In this document: piece by piece, positions 18,269 to 26,802 of the stretch
Position numbering within the stretch: position 1 is the stretch's first letter
Layout: each line of letters begins with the position of its first letter
DNA from: Paenibacillus curdlanolyticus YK9
Lineage (GTDB): Bacteria > Bacillota > Bacilli > Paenibacillales > Paenibacillaceae
NCBI RefSeq assembly: GCF_000179615.1
Contig: NZ_AEDD01000007.1
Span: 124,001-188,000 of the forward strand
DNA length: 64,000 nucleotides
Direction: 5' to 3'
The notes under the pieces: model-generated
Database searches by the model: none
Told to the model about the DNA's origin: nothing
Seen by the model: only the letters and a program-made list of their open reading frames with translations
Position numbers and translations under genes: made by a program

Positions 18269-18901
18269 ATGTCGCCAAAGACGGTAACATTCGAAGAATT
18301 GAAAGGCGAGCTTCAAACTGGAGATATCTTTTTTGCAAGCGGTATCGGGGCAGGCAGCCAGCGAATCGAGAAGCTGGAGCATTGCGAATGGTCCCATGTC
18401 GCCATGATCGTACGCACGCCGGACGATCAGCTGCTGCTGTGGGAATCCACGTCGCTCGACAATCTGGAGGATGTGCGCTTCCATGACCAAAAGCCCGGCC
18501 CGCAGCTGGTGCGCCTCGTTGATCGGCTCTCGACAGACGTCAGCTGCAAATACGATGGGAAGTTTGCGATCCGCCGCTTGAACGTCGATCGAACGCCTCA
18601 GATGCTGGAGAAGCTCAATTCGTTCATGGAACAGGTTTATGAAGCGACGTTCCCAAGCCATCTTCACATGTATCTCGAGGTGCTGGAAGGCAAGCTAGGC
18701 ATCCGCACATCGTTCCAAGATTTTTTCTGCAGCAAGCTGCTAGCCGAAACCTATATTCAGCTTGGCCTGCTGCCCGATCATCCGGTTGCGAACAGCTACG
18801 AGCCGGCCAGCTTCACATCAAGCCATCACCTCCCGCTTCTGCTGCATGCGACGCTGGATGATGAAGTGCTCATCGACATTGCTTCTATTCCGGTCTCATG
18901 A
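18269..18901 (+). CDS. YiiX-like permuted papain-fold (NlpC/P60 superfamily) protein
   Basis: 210 residues; ATG 18269 follows GGAGGGG. The start GDIFFASG and the motif CEWSHVAMIVR carry the catalytic His of the circularly permuted NlpC/P60 group, and FFCSKLLAETYIQLGLLP near residue 155 carries the catalytic Cys and following helix. Members cleave amide or acyl bonds; known cases act on cell wall peptides, lipids or protein modifications. No signal peptide, so it acts in the cytoplasm or at the inner membrane face. Its TGA overlaps the ATG of the giant kinase gene (ATGA), which ties it to that signalling operon. Confidence 0.8.
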   Translation: MSPKTVTFEELKGELQTGDIFFASGIGAGSQRIEKLEHCEWSHVAMIVRTPDDQLLLWESTSLDNLEDVRFHDQKPGPQLVRLVDRLSTDVSCKYDGKFAIRRLNVDRTPQMLEKLNSFMEQVYEATFPSHLHMYLEVLEGKLGIRTSFQDFFCSKLLAETYIQLGLLPDHPVANSYEPASFTSSHHLPLLLHATLDDEVLIDIASIPVS

Positions 18902-21900
18902 TCCGTATTGTCGTTTCCTTCTTTCTCCTGTTGACCCTGGGCGTAAGCAGCTTGTCGCTTGCGCCCGGCGATGCGACAGCTGCGCAGCCGAACGATGGCT
19001 CGCCAGCCATAATTGACGGCAGTATCGATTTAGCGGATTGGGACGCTTCTGAGGATGGGCCGATTAAGCTGGATGGCCGTTGGTCCTTCTACTGGCAGCA
19101 ATTGCTGACCCCATCGGACTGGAGTGGCGTCAATGTACCTTCAGGCGGCAGCTACATGCAGGTGCCAAGCTTTTGGACGAAAAGCTCGGCAAGCGCGCCC
19201 GGTCGCTCCGCCACCGGCTACGCCACTTATCGGCTGCACGTAACATCCATCCGCAATGAGGAGCTGCTTGCGATCAAATTGCGCAATATCTACTCCTCCT
19301 GCTCCGTATGGGTCAATGACAAACTCGTGTACACCGCCGGGAAGCCGGGCGTGAATGCAGCGTCAACAACCGCCCGGTACAGCCCCTCCGCCGTTATTCC
19401 GATCGATGTGAAAAACGGGACGCTTGATATTGTCATTCAAACCGCCAATTTCACTTATCCCCGAGGGGGCATCAACAATACGCTGCTGCTTGGCACCGCC
19501 GATCAGCTGATCGCATCGCGATCAAGCGAGCTCGTACAGGACTTTATCCAATTCGGAGCGCTTGGCATGATGGCGGTCTATCATCTGTTCCTGTTTGCCC
19601 TGCGGCGAAACGATCGGACGACGCTTAATTTCGCGATCTTCTGCTTATGCATGGCCGTACGCGCTTTACTGGTCAATTCGCGATATATTCTCGATGTATT
19701 CCCGGGCATGTCATTCGAGTTATTCGCGAAGCTGTCCTATCTGACCGTTTATGCCGGCTTCTATTTCTTGGTTGCCTACGTACACGAGCTGTTCCCAACC
19801 CTCTTCTCTTCGTTTGTGCGCAAAGGCTACGGGCTGTTCACGCTGCTGCTCATTGCCTCCGTGCTTGTTTTGAATGTCCAAGGCTATGACCACCTGCTGA
19901 TTCCATTCGAAATTCTGACAGCTGCCGCGGTGCTTTATTCGGCTTTCATCGCCGTCCGCGCCGCCAAGCAGCGGCAATCAGGTGCCCTCCTGCTGATCGG
20001 CGGCTTCATGGTCATTTTCGCCACCGGCGTAAGCGACGCATTCATGCGCAAAGCCGGGCATTTTCCTGCGCTACTGTCAACGGGCGTTCTGCTTTTCGCA
20101 TTTTTGCAATCCTTATTGCTATCGATGAAATTTTCCAAAGCATTCCGTCAGGTCGAACAGCTCTCCGAGCGGCTGCTCTCGCTGGACAAGCTGAAGGATG
20201 AGTTCCTTGCCCGCACCTCGCATGAGCTTCGCACTCCGCTGCACGGCATCATCGGGCTCACGGAATCGCTGCTGGACGGACCTGCCGGCAGTCGGCTTTC
20301 GGCTGAAGAAAACGGGCATCTCCAGCTAATACGATCCAGCGGGCAGCGGCTCGCCCATCTGGTGAACGATATTTTGGATTTCTCCAAGCTGCGGAATCGG
20401 GAAATTCAACTCCACCCCGTGACGATTAATGTCCATCAAATCGTAGAGCTCGTCCTGCACCTGCTCCGGCCACTGGCTGAAGGCAAGGGGCTTCTGCTCA
20501 TTAATGAGGTGCCGCCCGCTCTGCAGGTGCGCGCAGACGAGAATCGGCTCCATCAGATGCTGCATAATCTCGTCGGCAATGCAACCAAATTCACGCTGCA
20601 AGGGCATGTCGTCATTTCCGCCCGCAAGCAAGCGCGTCAAATCACGATCAACATCAAAGACACTGGAATCGGAATCGCTCAAGAAAGCCTTGGGGTCATC
20701 TTCGAGTCATTCGAGCAGCTCGATCCGACGACGAATAGCCGCTTCGGCGGGACAGGCATCGGCCTCTCTATCACGAAGAAGCTCGTTGAGCTGCACGGCG
20801 GCCGCATATGGGCTGAATCCACGCCGGGATTAGGCTCATCCTTCTCGTTCACCCTTCCTGAGGCAAGCGAGGAAACCGATGGATTCATGGCAAGCGTAGG
20901 CTATATCGCAAGAATAAGCGCCAATACGGAGACGGCTCCTCTGGCGTCTGGTTCCCTGCAATCGTCCTTTGCCCTTCAATCGGAGCACGAAAGCCCTGAT
21001 CACAACAACGACATGAAAACGGGATCCGTCGTCCCGATGGCGCAAGGCGGAGCGCTGCCGTTCGACTCGAAAAGGACGAGCGGCGAACGTCCTGCGGCGC
21101 TGATCGTGGACGACGATCCGGTCAACCTCTCCGTGCTTGCGCAATACCTTGGCAGCGGCTACGACATTCGCATGACGAGCAGCGGGCACGAGGCGATCGG
21201 CTGGATTCAAGCTGGCTTTAAGCCCGAAATCGCGCTGCTCGATGTCATGATGCCCGTCGTGTCCGGTTTCGAAATTTGCAATGAAATCCGGCAGCTGTAT
21301 AACTCAGGAGAAGTGCCTGTACTATTCCTGACTGCCGTCAACCAAACAAATGACTTGCTCACCGCGTACCGCCATGGCGCTAATGATTATATGATCAAAC
21401 CGATCGGCAAGCAGGAGCTGCTGGCAAGGCTTACGCTGCATCTGCAGATTGCGCGCTGGAACGCCTCACTAGAGCAGGAAATCGCAGTGAGAATGCTTGC
21501 GCTTGAGCAGACCATGGAGCAGCGTGCCCAAGTGATGTCGGATTTGTCTGTGCTGGAGGAGCGCAACCGAATAGCGCGCGACATTCACGACCACGTCGGG
21601 CATATGCTCACCGCCAGCATCGTCCAGCTGGAGGCTTCGATGACGCTATTCGATCATGAACCAACACTCGCAGCGGAACGATTAACGCTCGTTGCGGATC
21701 TGATGCGCCGCGGATTGCAGGAAATGCGCCGTTCTGTCCGCATGCTCACGGATGCGACGGAAGATACGGTTCGGCTGGAAGCCTCATTGGAGAAGTTTAT
21801 CGCCGAGGCGACCCGCTATGCAGGCATCACGATTGACCATCGGATCGAGCCGCTATCCGCGCGATTGCATCCCGAGCAGGAGAAGCTCGTATACCGCGTG

Positions 21901-22164
21901 CTGCAGGAGGGCATCACGAATGGGATTCGCCACGGCGATAGCCGGGACTTCCAATTCGAGCTGGTTGAACGAGAGCAAGGCTTAGTCGTCAAGCTGTTCA
22001 ACAGCGGGGCCCCCTATTCTTCTCCTATCCTCGGCTTTGGTTTGGCATCAATGAAGGAGGCCGCAGAGCGTTGGGGCGGACATTTTCACATTGGCGCAGT
22101 CGAAGGACAAGGCTGCCTGCTCGAAATCCTATTCCCCCTCCAAAGGAGTGATAAGCTTGCCTGA
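18898..22164 (+). CDS. 7TMR-DISM hybrid sensor with two histidine kinase modules and a receiver
   Basis: 1088 residues. A signal peptide (about 1-28) leads into an extracytoplasmic beta-sandwich of the 7TMR-DISMED2 type (about 40-195, YATYRLHV and IYSSCSVWVNDKLVYTAGK), then seven membrane helices (about 210-400). Next come HisKA (FLARTSHELRTPLHGIIG), HATPase_c (MLHNLVGNATKFT, DTGIGIA, FGGTGIGLS) and a receiver domain (IVDDDPVNLSVLAQYL, phospho-Asp in ALLDVMMP, Lys in YMIKPIG). After the receiver a second kinase of the NarL-sensor type follows: ERNRIARDIHDHVGHML as HisKA_3 and a short HATPase ending with FGLASMKEAAERWGG. Starts inside the upstream peptidase gene (ATGA) and overlaps the regulator gene by 8 bases. 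Confidence 0.9.
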   Translation: MIRIVVSFFLLLTLGVSSLSLAPGDATAAQPNDGSPAIIDGSIDLADWDASEDGPIKLDGRWSFYWQQLLTPSDWSGVNVPSGGSYMQVPSFWTKSSASAPGRSATGYATYRLHVTSIRNEELLAIKLRNIYSSCSVWVNDKLVYTAGKPGVNAASTTARYSPSAVIPIDVKNGTLDIVIQTANFTYPRGGINNTLLLGTADQLIASRSSELVQDFIQFGALGMMAVYHLFLFALRRNDRTTLNFAIFCLCMAVRALLVNSRYILDVFPGMSFELFAKLSYLTVYAGFYFLVAYVHELFPTLFSSFVRKGYGLFTLLLIASVLVLNVQGYDHLLIPFEILTAAAVLYSAFIAVRAAKQRQSGALLLIGGFMVIFATGVSDAFMRKAGHFPALLSTGVLLFAFLQSLLLSMKFSKAFRQVEQLSERLLSLDKLKDEFLARTSHELRTPLHGIIGLTESLLDGPAGSRLSAEENGHLQLIRSSGQRLAHLVNDILDFSKLRNREIQLHPVTINVHQIVELVLHLLRPLAEGKGLLLINEVPPALQVRADENRLHQMLHNLVGNATKFTLQGHVVISARKQARQITINIKDTGIGIAQESLGVIFESFEQLDPTTNSRFGGTGIGLSITKKLVELHGGRIWAESTPGLGSSFSFTLPEASEETDGFMASVGYIARISANTETAPLASGSLQSSFALQSEHESPDHNNDMKTGSVVPMAQGGALPFDSKRTSGERPAALIVDDDPVNLSVLAQYLGSGYDIRMTSSGHEAIGWIQAGFKPEIALLDVMMPVVSGFEICNEIRQLYNSGEVPVLFLTAVNQTNDLLTAYRHGANDYMIKPIGKQELLARLTLHLQIARWNASLEQEIAVRMLALEQTMEQRAQVMSDLSVLEERNRIARDIHDHVGHMLTASIVQLEASMTLFDHEPTLAAERLTLVADLMRRGLQEMRRSVRMLTDATEDTVRLEASLEKFIAEATRYAGITIDHRIEPLSARLHPEQEKLVYRVLQEGITNGIRHGDSRDFQFELVEREQGLVVKLFNSGAPYSSPILGFGLASMKEAAERWGGHFHIGAVEGQGCLLEILFPLQRSDKLA

Positions 22165-22810
22165 CCCTAACATCGCCATTGTGATCGTAGAGGATCAGAC
22201 CCTTGTGCGAGATGGAATCGAGATCATCGTCAATCTTCAGCCTGATATGCAGGTCGTCGGCACAGCGAACAATGGACAGGAAGGCTACGAGCTGGTCGGC
22301 CGCCTCCGGCCGCACATCGTCCTCATGGACATCGAAATGCCCATTATGAACGGCATCATTAGCACGCAGCGCATAAAGGCGGATTATCCCGATACTATCA
22401 TTTTGCTGCTGACAACCTTCTCTGATGAGCATTACGTTGTCGAAGGGCTCGCCGGGGGCGCAAGCGGCATTCTGCTCAAAGACTTCACAGCAAACAAGCT
22501 GACAGGGGCCCTTCGCGAGGCAATGCGGGGCGAACTCCTGCTCCCTGCATCCATTGCGGCAAAGCTTGCCATGCGACTTCGCTCGGTCACGAGCCCTACC
22601 TTCGCTGGCGCAGACTTTGCCCTGACGCCGCGAGAGATCGAAATCGCCACGCTGCTCATCGCCTACAAGAACAACCGTGAAATTGCCGAGGCGTTGTTCA
22701 TCACCGAAGGCACCGTCAAAAACTACATCAGCGTCATCTATGAAAAGGTCGGCATGAACGACCGCGCCAAAGTCATCGCTAGGCTTAAGGGTATGCTGGA
22801 GCATGGCTAG
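22157..22810 (+). CDS. NarL/LuxR-family response regulator
   Basis: 217 residues from TTG 22157, eight bases after AAAGGAG, inside the end of the kinase gene. The receiver domain has IVEDQTLVRDGIEIIV with the acidic pocket, phospho-Asp in VLMDIEMPIMNG, Thr in LLTTF and Lys in GILLKDF. The C-terminal LuxR helix-turn-helix begins LTPREIEIATLL and contains NREIAEALFITEGTVKNYIS. It is the expected partner of the HisKA_3 module at the end of the upstream hybrid kinase and likely binds promoters as a dimer. A terminator follows at 22918-22951. Confidence 0.93.
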   Translation: MPDPNIAIVIVEDQTLVRDGIEIIVNLQPDMQVVGTANNGQEGYELVGRLRPHIVLMDIEMPIMNGIISTQRIKADYPDTIILLLTTFSDEHYVVEGLAGGASGILLKDFTANKLTGALREAMRGELLLPASIAAKLAMRLRSVTSPTFAGADFALTPREIEIATLLIAYKNNREIAEALFITEGTVKNYISVIYEKVGMNDRAKVIARLKGMLEHG

Positions 22811-22845
22811 GTAGAAGCGGAGGGCTGGCTAGATTAGGCCGGCAT

Positions 22846-22880
22846 GGAGTCCTCTAGCCAGCCGCTGGCTAGAGGACTCC
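22846..22880. repeat. Perfect 16-bp inverted repeat
   Basis: GGAGTCCTCTAGCCAG (22846-22861) is followed by three bases and its exact reverse complement (22865-22880). It stands 35 bases after the regulator stop and before the terminator, so it will fold in the 3' end of that transcript. Confidence 0.8.
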
Positions 22881-22917
22881 GCTGCATAGACGCTGAGAGC
22901 CCGCCTATAAACCGCAG

Positions 22918-22951
22918 GCCACACAGGTTGCAACGCCTGTGTGGCTTTTTT
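22918..22951 (+). terminator. Terminator of the peptidase-kinase-regulator operon
   Basis: GCCACACAGG (22918-22927) and CCTGTGTGGC (22936-22945) form a 10-bp stem followed by six T. Confidence 0.9.
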
Positions 22952-22989
22952 GTGCGCCCATTGCCCTTATGGGGAAAGGCGGATATTTC

Positions 22990-23601
22990 TTCCCTATCCA
23001 CTCATCAGGCCCTCGTTTGCTATGATAGGGAAGATCGTTATTCCCTATTCACTCACCCAGCCCTCGTTTGCCCCAATAGGGAAGATCTTTGTTCCCTATT
23101 CACTCATCCGGCCATCGTTTGCTCCAATAGGGAAGATATTTATTCCCTATTCACTCACCCAGCCCTCGTTGGCTCCGATAGGGAATATCGTTATTCCCTA
23201 TTCACTCACCCAGCCCTCGTTGGCTCCAATAGGGAAGATCGTTATTCCCTATTCGCTCACCCAGCCCTCGTTGGCTCCGATAGGGAATATCGTTATTCCC
23301 TATTCACTCACCCAGCCCTCGTTGGCTCCGATAGGGAATATCGTTATTCCCTATTCACTCATCAGGCCCTCGTTTGCTCCGATAGGGAAGATTTTTGTTC
23401 CCTATTCGCTCACCGGGCACTCTTTTGCCCCGATAGGGAATATCGTTGTTCCCTATTCACTCACCCAGCACTCGTTGGCTCCAATAGGGCAGATATTTCT
23501 TCCCTATTCACTCACCCAGCCCTCGTTGGCTCCGATAGGGAATATCGTTATTCCCTATTCACTCATCCGGCCCTCGTTTGCTCCGATAGGGAAGATTTTT
23601 G
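22990..23601. repeat. Tandem array, 12 units of exactly 51 bp, each with nested palindromes
   Basis: TTCCCTAT begins at 22990 and then every 51 bases to 23551, twelve times without a single insertion or deletion. Each unit is TTCCCTAT, about 27 bases (around CACCCAGCCCTCGTTGG), ATAGGGAA, then 8 bases. So every ATAGGGAA can pair with the TTCCCTAT after it (8-base loop) or before it (27-base loop). Units fall into two sequence types: ...CAGCCCTCGTTGG... and ...C[CA]GGCCCTCGTTTG.... Two plus-strand frames stay open because 51 is a multiple of three, with a 17-residue periodic product (about IPYSLTQPSLAPIGNIV), but no ribosome binding site leads into them. It lies after a terminator and about 280 bases before a two-gene cassette. 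Confidence 0.9.
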
Positions 23602-23604
23602 CCT

Positions 23605-23662
23605 TTGTCCCCGGATTCAGACCGCTTAACGGTCTTACACAACCCGATGAATCCGGGGACAA
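23605..23662. repeat. Long inverted repeat with a nested hairpin, end of the array
   Basis: TTGTCCCCGGATTCA (23605-23619) pairs with TGAATCCGGGGACAA (23648-23662) over 15 bases. Inside, GACCG-CTTAA-CGGTC (23620-23634) forms a second small hairpin. It starts 3 bases after the last 51-bp unit. The following 23663-23875 stretch shows no gene or repeat. Confidence 0.75.
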
Positions 23663-23884
23663 CAGCGATCGGAAGGAACATTCGCCCTGCGCAGTGGTCG
23701 CCCAACAGTAGCATGCCAACCGCATCCCCCAACCGCCGCACCATTACCCCAGTCATCCCCTCGTCATATGACATACTGCTTACTCCAGTCACTTATCCGC
23801 TCCCGTATAGCCGCTTATGATTGTGATGTAGCAAACAAGCAGACGACAACCCAAATACAAACCGATTTCTGAGGAGGAATTACA

Positions 23885-25330
23885 ATGGCAAAGGTGCAAG
23901 CAACGACGGCAAATGACGGTTCCAGCGTATTCGACGTTAACACGAACGATCCCAATCAGTTGAAGTGGCAGGCAGACGCAATGATGTTCGTATCCGATCT
24001 GCAGGTGAACCAAACGCTTAAGCAGCAATGGACATCACTGCTGGCGAGCATGAAAGCGAAGCTCGACGACAGCCCTCCCCCGGCGGACGACAAAGACGCG
24101 ATATACAAAGAAAAGATCAAGATCATCAATAATTTCTTGGCGCAAAAAGGGTATCAAACCGCAGCCGTCTTCGTCCTCGAGCTGACCAAAACCGACTTCT
24201 ACAACGATCACCTCAAGGAAAGCGAGCCTAACGACGAGTCCGATCGTTTCGTTCAGGACATTTTGGCGAAGCCCGCCCTGCTGGCTGGCTGGCAGAAAGC
24301 GATGCAAACGGCGCATGATTCGGACTCGACTGCACCCGACCAATACTTGAAGAACAATGGCTACCGTTGCTCTGCCCAACAAGTTGCGGCTTCCTTCAAA
24401 TCAATGCGCAATGTTGATCTGAAGTTCTGGACCGGCGTTTACGGCAACACGGTCATCACGACGACGGACGGCAAATCCGAGACTGGCCCGACGGTGCTCA
24501 TCTACTCCAGCACGGACGGCATCTCGATCGGCAGCGATATGCTGGACAAAGAATTAAATAAAGTAACCTACGACAAGGGCGTGCTGAGCTGGACGAAGGA
24601 TGATTTCACCATTAGCCATTCCGGCCAGTTAACGTTCAGCCAAGTGACGCGTGCTGCCAAAGACGATAAAGACGGCTATGTGGGCAACGAGTTTTTCGGA
24701 ACGATTACGTATTATGAAAACGGAGCGGAGACGAAGAAAAATATTTTCGGCCGAATCGGCAAGCCTCCAGTAGACAACAGCGGCTCGGGCGGCGGTGATC
24801 GCAAGAAATGCCCTACGCCTCCGTCCGTGAAGCTTAGCGAAGTCGACAAAGCGATGAAATATATCGGCTACTTTATGGCGGCTGTCTTCATCGTGGACTT
24901 CATCGCCTCGGTGCCTAAACGGTTCAAAGCCATTTCCGAATTCGTTGAGAAAGTAAAATCAGCTGTCACCGACGACAAGAAATCCAATATGGAAGAGGAG
25001 CTGGATGATTCGTTCGAAATGATCGAGGTTTCCAGCGATGAGCAATCGCTCAATGAGAACGGATCATTCGATTCGAATGTCGATGGCGCGCAGCCTGAAA
25101 ACTATGACAATGCGCAGGGGCTGGATGGCATCAGCGACGAGCAGCTGCCGCGTGCCGAGGATGTGCAGGCGATGGAGCAAGGACTGGATAACATCAACGA
25201 GAATGGCGAGATCGAGCAAAACGAGGACAACGTCAATGAGCAGGATGATGCCGTTCAGGACGATGACGCATACAACGGCGAGAGCGAAGGCGAGTTCGAG
25301 GGCCTGTCCGATCTATTCAAAGAAATTTAA
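23885..25330 (+). CDS. Unknown protein with helical repeats, beta domain, one membrane helix and acidic tail
   Basis: 481 residues; ATG 23885 follows GAGGAGG. No signal peptide. Two helical segments near 20-105 and 120-175 each end in a short motif (FLAQKGYQTAAVFV; YLKNNGYRCSAQQVA) that recalls Nif11-type helical domains. Residues about 180-310 are predicted beta strands with Gly/Thr turns (a lipocalin-like or sandwich domain is possible). After a GSGGGDRKKCPTPP linker one hydrophobic helix is seen (YIGYFMAAVFIVDFIASV, about 328-346). The last 110 residues are very acidic and Asn/Gln-rich and likely disordered. Thirty bases separate it from the next gene. I do not recognise a family; the assignments are by pattern only. 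Confidence 0.75.
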   Translation: MAKVQATTANDGSSVFDVNTNDPNQLKWQADAMMFVSDLQVNQTLKQQWTSLLASMKAKLDDSPPPADDKDAIYKEKIKIINNFLAQKGYQTAAVFVLELTKTDFYNDHLKESEPNDESDRFVQDILAKPALLAGWQKAMQTAHDSDSTAPDQYLKNNGYRCSAQQVAASFKSMRNVDLKFWTGVYGNTVITTTDGKSETGPTVLIYSSTDGISIGSDMLDKELNKVTYDKGVLSWTKDDFTISHSGQLTFSQVTRAAKDDKDGYVGNEFFGTITYYENGAETKKNIFGRIGKPPVDNSGSGGGDRKKCPTPPSVKLSEVDKAMKYIGYFMAAVFIVDFIASVPKRFKAISEFVEKVKSAVTDDKKSNMEEELDDSFEMIEVSSDEQSLNENGSFDSNVDGAQPENYDNAQGLDGISDEQLPRAEDVQAMEQGLDNINENGEIEQNEDNVNEQDDAVQDDDAYNGESEGEFEGLSDLFKEI

Positions 25331-25359
25331 CCAACCAAACGATATAGGAGGCTACAACC

Positions 25360-26802
25360 ATGTCTAACAATGCAGTTACGCAAGACCAAGCCGCGTTCTG
25401 GCAATTATTCGTCACAACAATCGCAGGCCAGCTGCCCGGCACTGATCCGAAAAACTTCATCTCCGCAGCAGGGGCAATCAACTCCAACCTTGCTAACGAG
25501 AACGAAGCGATTGCCTTAACCGACGCTTATAATCTCGGCAATACGATCCCGGATTGGGGCTTAACGTGGAATGGCGCGTTTAATACCCGGTTGTTCGATA
25601 CGTACCAGCAATGGGTGCGCGACCTTGTGCCAGCGGGCGGCTCGGACAGCTCCTCCGGCAGCGGCACGACTGGCGGCGCTTCCGACGATCTCGATACGCA
25701 AATCGATGCGCTTCGCAGCAAAATCGCGACGCTCAGCAGCGATGTCTCCCTGATCTACCAAGGGTTTTACGAGGATTGGCTGAACGAGGTATGCGCTGAA
25801 TTCGACGACTCCGGCAAAACCTGCAAGCTTTTCATGTCCACGCCGCCAGACCCGACCTGGAGCTCGTACCGGCAGGACCAGTTGACGACGGACAATTATA
25901 AAGCAAAAGTTGAAGCGCTCGAAAGCACATTCGGCTCGCTGCTCGCTGGCTTAACGACCCAGCTCAACGCCCTGCTGCTGCAAAAGTTCGGACCCGACTA
26001 CCAAGAGCTTGCCGACGCATCCGAAGCGGTAGCGCTCGCTGATCCTTTCGAACCGCATACGACGGACGAACTTCAGCAAACATCGCAATTTCAGATGACG
26101 ATCAAAGAAAATGATACGACCGCTTCAGTGCCGCGGTTCAAAACGAGCGAGCTGCAGAACGTTCGCAATTGGCTGCGCAAGCAGCAGGATGCCGTTGCAG
26201 CTAACGGCTCCCCGCTGTTCGCCGATAAAGCGAAGGTGCAAATTACGCTCAACGATCAGCAAGCTACGGAGAAGGACAGCTCGTGGAAATTCAGTGCGAG
26301 CGTGGGCATCCCGATCGACTGGTTCTGGCTCGGCGGCAAAACAAGCGAATCCAGCAGCAGCCAATATCAAGAAAACTATTCGTACGACATGCTAATCACG
26401 TACCAAGATATCATTACCGTTAACGTTAATCCCGGCGACTGGTACTTTGAAGGCCTGCTGCGCACCTATAAGGACTTCAACAACTGGATGCCAGGCACCA
26501 GCTTCATCGGCAAGCAAATCTGGGGACCTAACGGGCTAATGAATGTGGTGGTCAAAGGGGTCGTGCTCGGCTATGCGCCTTACATGCGCTTTACCTCCAA
26601 GGACTGGAACAACACAACGACTATGACGCAGTGGTCCGCCAGCGCCAGCTTCGGAATCGGTCCCTTCAACTTTGAGTCGGCGTCCGCTTCCGGCTCCGAA
26701 TACAGCTCGTTCACGCAGCAGATCGAGAACGGCATCGAAATCCGCGACACGAGCGGCGTTCCGAAAGTTATCGGACTGATCGTAGATACGCCAAACTTCT
26801 AA
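25360..26802 (+). CDS. Unknown 480-residue protein, possible beta-pore-forming type
   Basis: 480 residues; ATG 25360 follows ATAGGAGG, a strong site. No signal peptide or membrane helix. Residues 1-95 are helical, a Gly/Ser linker with SSSGSGTTGG follows, then a long helical region (about 110-230) with coiled-coil character. The C-terminal half is beta-rich: WKFSASVGIPIDWFW, a Ser-rich run, and near the end WSASASFGIGPFNFESASAS with alternating polar and non-polar residues, as in amphipathic hairpins of beta-pore-forming toxins. It ends KVIGLIVDTPNF. I recall similar C-terminal Ser-alternating proteins of unknown function in bacteria and fungi but cannot name a family. Co-transcribed with 23885-25330. 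Confidence 0.75.
   Translation: MSNNAVTQDQAAFWQLFVTTIAGQLPGTDPKNFISAAGAINSNLANENEAIALTDAYNLGNTIPDWGLTWNGAFNTRLFDTYQQWVRDLVPAGGSDSSSGSGTTGGASDDLDTQIDALRSKIATLSSDVSLIYQGFYEDWLNEVCAEFDDSGKTCKLFMSTPPDPTWSSYRQDQLTTDNYKAKVEALESTFGSLLAGLTTQLNALLLQKFGPDYQELADASEAVALADPFEPHTTDELQQTSQFQMTIKENDTTASVPRFKTSELQNVRNWLRKQQDAVAANGSPLFADKAKVQITLNDQQATEKDSSWKFSASVGIPIDWFWLGGKTSESSSSQYQENYSYDMLITYQDIITVNVNPGDWYFEGLLRTYKDFNNWMPGTSFIGKQIWGPNGLMNVVVKGVVLGYAPYMRFTSKDWNNTTTMTQWSASASFGIGPFNFESASASGSEYSSFTQQIENGIEIRDTSGVPKVIGLIVDTPNF

Follow-up and report, generated by a model that had tools for sequence, protein, structure and literature searches.

The window analysed here is a 64-kb stretch of the Paenibacillus curdlanolyticus YK9 genome (G000; contig C33, positions 124001-188000). 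It carries a 51-bp tandem repeat flanked on one side by genes for a hybrid sensor histidine kinase and a LuxR-type response regulator and on the other by a two-gene cassette. Tandem Repeats Finder returned the repeat as its sole row at the default threshold in the 64 kb (22990-23596, period 51, 11.9 copies, 87% matches, 0% indels, score 864). The features of the locus, in window coordinates, are the following.

18898-22164, plus strand: hybrid sensor histidine kinase, context only (open reading frame and protein family scan)
22133-22810, plus strand: LuxR-type response regulator, start uncertain, context only (open reading frame and protein family scan)
22916-22947, plus strand: intrinsic terminator belonging to the upstream response-regulator gene (terminator prediction)
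22974-23601, plus strand: whole array, including a degenerate palindrome (22974) and a terminal left half (23586-23601) (repeat finder and sequence)
23025-23048, plus strand: first intact palindrome, ATAGGGAA-GATCGTTA-TTCCCTAT, recurring with a 51-bp period up to 23535-23558 (sequence)
23049-23075, plus strand: 27-bp interior, here TCACTCACCCAGCCCTCGTTTGCCCCA, with array-specific letters and fixed length (sequence and between-array comparison)
23607-23660, no strand assigned: 13-bp inverted repeat GTCCCCGGATTCA / TGAATCCGGGGAC directly right of the array, outside the repeat family (direct reading)
23885-26802, plus strand: two-gene cassette encoding 481 and 480 aa, about 290 bp beyond the array, context only

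Within the array, TTCCCTAT is repeated in exact 51-base steps from 22990 to 23551, and 11 intact 24-bp palindromes lie between 23025 and 23558. The palindrome arms are nearly invariant, the single exception being one ATAGGGAA arm that reads ATAGGGCA. The original prediction, made from the DNA letters, had described a twelve-fold 51-bp tandem without length change, almost invariant arms with one deviant unit and a terminator upstream, and the analysis bore it out on these points. Its claim that two unit types, GTTGG or GTTTG together with CAGCC or GGCC, vary in a linked manner held as a loose association: unit 2 combines CAGCC with GTTTG, and unit 9 matches neither type. By inspection these are not compensatory base-pair changes and look like unit haplotypes. 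An Rfam 15 scan of the window gave tRNA only, the array itself having no match at the gathering threshold. The inverted repeat to the right of the array is strong, with an inner GACCG/CGGTC hairpin within its 13-bp arms, and lies ahead of the cassette. The two cassette proteins match no Pfam family and have only marginal PADLOC matches (E 0.013 and 0.0052); the C-terminal tail of the first is very acidic.

Two open reading frames run through the window array, and 51 is divisible by three, as would be expected of a coding repeat of 17 codons. Such a repeat is scarcely credible: the related elements described below have periods of 50, 52, 62 and 63, which would break the frame, and the conserved positions are those of the palindrome arms.

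The 51-bp repeat is one of many similar dispersed intergenic palindrome arrays in this bacterium and its relatives. A two-unit probe gave 36 matches in G000, on C33 and 11 other contigs; a pattern search that included interior letters gave no match. All arrays of the genome share, with scattered mismatches, the 24-bp palindrome ATAGGG(A/C)A-N8-T(T/G)CCCTAT, on which the array scan was seeded. The scan found 15 arrays in 854 kb (C39:1-400000, the whole of C34 and C33:84001-228000), contigs picked after the two-unit probe had already matched there. In total, 26 arrays were counted in the approximately 2.0 Mb read of the 5.45-Mb genome, including one more on C35. Three pairs of segments were merged in this count as one array each, namely C22 with C25 and C26 with C32, which have like interiors and are cut at contig ends, and two on C27 that are split by an insert. 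The C27 array (L113) is interrupted between 117002 and 118931 by about 1.4 kb of what looks like an insertion sequence. The arrays also explain assembly breaks, at least five contigs ending inside them (C19, C22, C25, C26 and C32). A phage origin was rejected, the pair pattern having 0 matches in viral contigs, as was a plasmid origin, the window array being without match in plasmids.

Across 28 array segments, some of them from stretches retrieved around arrays already known, the centre spacing equals exactly 51 bp in 168 of 174 cases; the six others are 50 (twice), 42, 49, 52 and 53. Palindrome pairs with at most three mismatches numbered 334 in G000, 48 in its sister species Paenibacillus sp. 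MMS18-CY102 (G002) and 0 in four other genomes of the genus. The interiors are near-identical inside one array and unlike between arrays, with a mean between-array identity of 11.5 of 27 positions among 25 distinct arrays (shuffled 8.2, maximum 20). Interior position 1 is T in 23 of the 25 arrays, position 2 is C in 22 and position 6 is C in 23, so the interior is not wholly free. In the arms, 159 of 202 palindromes have a Watson-Crick pair at 7:18 versus 96 expected, with A-T and C-G both common; 30 of the 43 non-Watson-Crick cases pair C with T.

All array segments are intergenic with respect to open reading frames of at least 80 aa called after masking of the arrays, a procedure that by construction left out array-spanning frames such as those in the window. 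Among 22 arrays with both neighbouring genes seen, 12 lie between convergent, nine between co-oriented and one between divergent genes, the split C27 array being entered once, as convergent. The corresponding numbers for 279 array-free intergenic segments of 80-600 bp are 37, 180 and 62; these segments were defined by genes of at least 150 aa, not quite the gene set of the array count. REP/BIME elements are enriched at gene 3' ends. The 20 flanking proteins scanned on C39, C34 and C33 are spread over many unrelated families and include a Mutator-type transposase; regulation of neighbouring genes was rejected on this diversity. No Cas match was obtained among the 22 flanking proteins of G000 scanned with Pfam. 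Array density is 14 in 454 kb on C33 and C34 together, and one each in 547 kb of C38, 400 kb of C39 and 280 kb of C35; the higher density on C33 and C34 is only indicative because these contigs were chosen after matches there were known. C38, read whole, includes the GC-skew terminus near 360 kb and one two-palindrome element, and the single C35 array lies in the 280 kb around the skew origin (dnaA at C35:234312).

Another possibility is that the array is transcribed and acts as a structured RNA or leader able to change between two folds, as the original prediction had proposed. Hairpins are possible in RNA; in the arms of related units, the T strand has 22 G-T cells to 10 A-C cells, which hints weakly at one strand being favoured; and both near pairing, across the 8-base loop, and far pairing, across the 27-base loop between units, exceeded shuffles on alignment A1. 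The idea of a long leader is nevertheless unsupported, with the arrays located mostly between convergent genes or in varied settings and next to diverse protein families. The window array has no Rfam match at the gathering threshold, and the polarity described below tracks replication, not transcription. When ten array loci were searched against Rfam at E up to 1, three matches appeared, all below gathering scores (best E 0.0083) and judged to be chance. No sigma-70-like promoter was found at 22700-24000, a weak result given 1.2 expected by chance. In six of seven segments polymorphic at arm position 7, two of them narrowly, the 8-base-loop pairing was favoured over the across-unit pairing, which exceeded the shuffled expectation in four of the seven. 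The two-fold switch was dropped on the former count, the far pairing being unproven rather than refuted. The interiors contribute little to folding, with mean z-scores of -0.6 (DNA) and -0.4 (RNA). We consider a structured RNA or leader very unlikely.

The palindrome loop is asymmetric, typically GATTTTTA, and gives each array a polarity. With the lagging strand assigned as the strand of negative local GC skew, the T-rich loop strand is the lagging strand in 25 of 26 G000 arrays, the exception by loop letters being C34:176145. Three of these 25 arrays agree narrowly: in the window array, C22/C25 and the C38 pair, T exceeds A by only 1. At the C35 array the local skew amounts to only 0.022. Compositional skew was ruled out as the source of this polarity: background lagging-strand intergenic DNA (279 segments, 74 kb) has no A/T skew (A 0.264, T 0.268), and its runs of at least five are more often of A (179) than of T (119). 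Strand folding energy was likewise excluded as the cause, the T strand being the more stable in 11 of 28 cases as DNA and 12 of 28 as RNA. Since the strands are equal in predicted folding stability, hairpin stability alone cannot explain the polarity. The T strand is antisense in six and sense in three of the nine arrays between co-oriented genes, and all nine obey the replication rule; polarity therefore tracks replication rather than genes. Such near-perfect polarity offers a natural marker of replication direction.

The rule extends to other genomes. In G002, 11 of 14 loci agree. L068 runs against the rule, L062 is mixed with letter counts leaning slightly against it, and L063 is neutral. 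Three of these 14 loci consist of a single palindrome, skew was computed on 8-kb loci, and four sites are shared with G000 and hence not independent. The single-contig genome G200 has arms (AATCA..GGC) unrelated to those of G000. Here, 18 of 19 places agree among 100 of 322 matches listed, five of the places having a single listed palindrome. Among these listed matches, 11 places are on the minus strand (0.17-1.78 Mb) and seven on the plus strand (3.99-5.84 Mb), and the exception is at 6.21 Mb. Over 20 samples, G200 has positive skew at 0.1-3.65 Mb and negative skew at 4.0-6.6 Mb, albeit just -0.002 at 5.65 Mb. Five tandem blocks at three sites of G176 also agree by eye, one site being judged from neighbouring skew samples (local value -0.017). 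In G044, three of five places agree by T/A count and five of five by the G at the start of the loop, a criterion picked once the data had been seen.

Comparison of the two sister species revealed arrays at the same place at four loci (L054, L059, L060 and L061), where the aligned flanks are 75-87% identical and the palindromes are kept. Interiors at these sites match at 11, 17, 6 and 15 of 27 positions, respectively, with an all-pairs mean of 10.7; the G000 partner is the best or tied-best interior match for L059 and L061 and not for L054 and L060. Two G002 loci, L064 and L068, have flanks aligned to G000 but no G000 array. G002 has a doublet at L064, and no target-site duplication was visible by eye at the empty site in G000. 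At L068, the distance between the aligned flanks is 24 bp in G000 and about 120 bp in G002, element included. This element (L068:3096; corresponding G000 site on C38 near 466340) is also the one clear case of reversed loop polarity in G002. Units of the G000 C32 array are matched at 81-88% by the G002 doublet L067, with palindromes making up 48 of the 75 bp, whereas nothing close to the flanks or proteins of this doublet turned up in the G000 DNA examined. This match points to doublet dispersal, while it may also be orthology with lost synteny. At L062:3023-3607 in G002, two interiors alternate to form a 102-bp higher-order repeat, which suggests two-unit expansion steps.

Beyond the sister species, exact G000 arms are rare (four of 147 genomes, G000 included). 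They occur in two of 295 genomes of the family with three mismatches allowed, and in two of six genomes of genus g25. A species-wide scan, which may omit the window's own genome, matched three named genomes, one of them with a different repeat. A covariance model (R1) at E ≤0.001 matched 24 of 392 genomes of the order, in 10 of 49 genera, many of the matches being weak and the E-values rough. Of 398 genomes of the class, 17 had matches to a second model: 12 belong to the same family as the window, and the five others, all outside the order and each with one or two weak matches, were set aside as probable chance. Among the 17 R1 loci viewed, six are 50-51-bp tandem arrays with wholly different arms, and most of the rest contain like palindromes arranged as doublets or quartets. 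A stem table of 21 palindromes, drawn from 18 genomes, has Watson-Crick pairs in nearly every cell and four pair types at seven of ten positions, a palindromicity partly ascertained in that R1 rewards pairing and spacing of about 51 bp and the stem table takes the best stem of each. Nothing in this selection favoured long arrays, the 62-bp and 72-bp spacings or the G200 polarity. The arms differ fully between related genera yet remain palindromic, which speaks for the fold, or a dyad-symmetric site with a co-evolving reader, as what matters. Two contigs of a metagenome-assembled genome (MAG) labelled Tannerella (L047 and L065) carry a different short tandem repeat with GGGAATTACCGATTCCCTAT-like palindromes.

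Like palindromes are spaced 51-53, 62-63 or 72 bp apart, and 81 bp in one case; blind-scan spacings of 30-46, 56-60, 68 and 77-81 were judged by eye to separate unlike palindromes and were set aside. Genus g25, including the MAG Paenibacillus sp. RH52_bin.008, has a 191-bp quartet, and all 11 complete cases show 52-63-52 spacing; these include orthologous copies shared by G108 and G113, and five partial chains were set aside. Read by eye, this quartet consists of two inverted doublets. Among the matches listed, the distance from one pair to the next is 115 bp in 14 of 15 instances and 114 bp in the other. The spacing is 51-62-51 in G120 and 51.5-72-51 in G399. Values near five, six and seven DNA turns are suggestive of helical phasing, of which discrete spacings are a testable sign.

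Such possible phasing brings in the main rival explanation, a double-stranded protein-binding array in which a dimeric chromosomal protein would occupy each palindrome with its neighbours on about the same helix face, for example to organise or load along the replication direction. The original prediction had listed a protein-binding array among its options, and the discrete spacings, the uniform g25 quartets among them, speak for it. Arms that are uniform per genome around differing interiors are also what one trans-acting protein would give. However, the 81-bp spacing and the G000 spacings of 42, 49, 50, 52 and 53 break phase, other blind-scan spacings exist, and the independent values are few, some quartets being orthologous copies. 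Copy number is also very unequal between close species, as the pair counts for G000 and G002 show, and no candidate protein was found. We regard this explanation as doubtful, if deserving of serious attention.

The reading that we prefer, although giving it slightly less than an even chance, is that the array belongs to a dispersed, non-autonomous REP/BIME-like hairpin repeat, one that would spread or lengthen in single-stranded DNA at the replication fork with the help of a trans-acting factor. Arms that are uniform genome-wide around unlike interiors argue for a trans-acting reader, and the replication polarity argues for a fork-linked process. The elementary unit would be a doublet of palindrome, 27-bp interior and palindrome. 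The palindrome would fold into a hairpin once one strand is single-stranded at the fork, and a putative trans-acting factor would recognise that hairpin. During lagging-strand synthesis, doublets may then insert and arrays may grow in steps of one or two units, presumably by single-strand mobility and slippage-type expansion. Fork-coupled insertion and expansion would fix orientation to the fork, keep palindrome and spacing constant, and homogenise interiors within each array while leaving them free between arrays. Of the three options in the original prediction, a mobile repeat fits best, although the family extends past one genus; overall, that interpretation is partly supported.

RAYT-driven REPs were ruled out in G000 by the lack of Y1_Tnp (TnpA-REP, PF01797), which had 0 matches there; among the 22 array-bearing genomes searched, a set that leaves three more R1-positive genomes outside it, this domain is absent from 14 and present in eight. 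If our preferred reading is right, the coupling of hairpin repeats, lagging-strand synthesis and repeat spread becomes testable without the RAYT transposase that is linked to REPs elsewhere. It is possible, though on balance improbable, that the repeats form an undescribed Paenibacillales class of helically phased, fork-oriented doublets and arrays, their arms rewritten per lineage together with a non-RAYT factor that moves them or organises the chromosome. No published description of the repeat was found in the open-access literature covered, as judged by titles, abstract openings and term counts.

A further reading is a largely neutral satellite: an old palindrome would have spread, slippage would change the arrays, and polarity and spacing would be by-products of orientation-dependent mutational stability. 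For other repeats that form hairpins, it is established that stability depends on orientation. Homogeneous units within arrays, haplotypes that change in unit steps and the 102-bp dimer repeat fit such an origin. We nevertheless think it rather unlikely: the interiors of different arrays agree on average at 11.5 of 27 positions (shuffled 8.2), yet their length of 27 and the arms are fixed, unlike the outcome of neutral drift, and both strands fold about equally well. The constant unit length and the single replication polarity of all but one G000 array likewise separate the repeat from an ordinary satellite or VNTR. The original prediction had named an ordinary satellite of variable unit length and random location as the outcome that would count against it; at the level of sequence, unit length proved constant, and orientation and gene context non-random.

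CRISPR arrays also combine a palindromic repeat with a fixed-length spacer, but the Paenibacillus interiors are near-identical within an array and the repeat occupies about 26 dispersed loci. Integron attC sites are recognised as single-stranded hairpins, with dependence on the replication strand. Recognition of hairpins in single-stranded DNA, again with replication-strand dependence, is described for IS608 (PMC6006769). Unlike these IS200/IS605 and attC systems, the Paenibacillus unit is 51 bp of non-coding DNA with no linked transposase or integrase. REP/BIME elements of E. coli and other bacteria are described (PMC2817692) as short extragenic palindromes of high copy number that are clustered and regularly spaced. 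The Paenibacillus repeat is similarly extragenic (arrays masked before calling of open reading frames), with a 24-bp palindrome, many copies and regular spacing. It differs in that the spacing within its arrays is strictly 51-52 bp and the units share one polarity, and G000 lacks a Y1 transposase. By inspection, no GTAG or CGTC foot is present on the palindrome, the feet being mostly like GAATAG...CTATTC or AATCA...TGATT, and term counts in a GTAG/CGTC survey (PMC3733652) gave no occurrence of Paenibacillus or Firmicutes. With the usual REP enzyme missing from G000, we would keep the repeat family apart from REP, though a REP-like hairpin handled as single-stranded DNA is the most economical reading. 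The REPINs of Pseudomonas fluorescens SBW25 resemble the repeat in that a doublet of palindromes with a less conserved spacer is the proposed mobile unit in both. SBW25 doublets, however, are mostly inverted and RAYT-linked, whereas those of G000 and G002 are direct and inverted ones occur only in the g25 quartets. In SBW25 (PMC3116915), GI-GIII tandem arrays show a comparable split by orientation, with five forward near 2 Mb and six reverse near 4 Mb; in the Paenibacillus family, polarity covers nearly all arrays examined.
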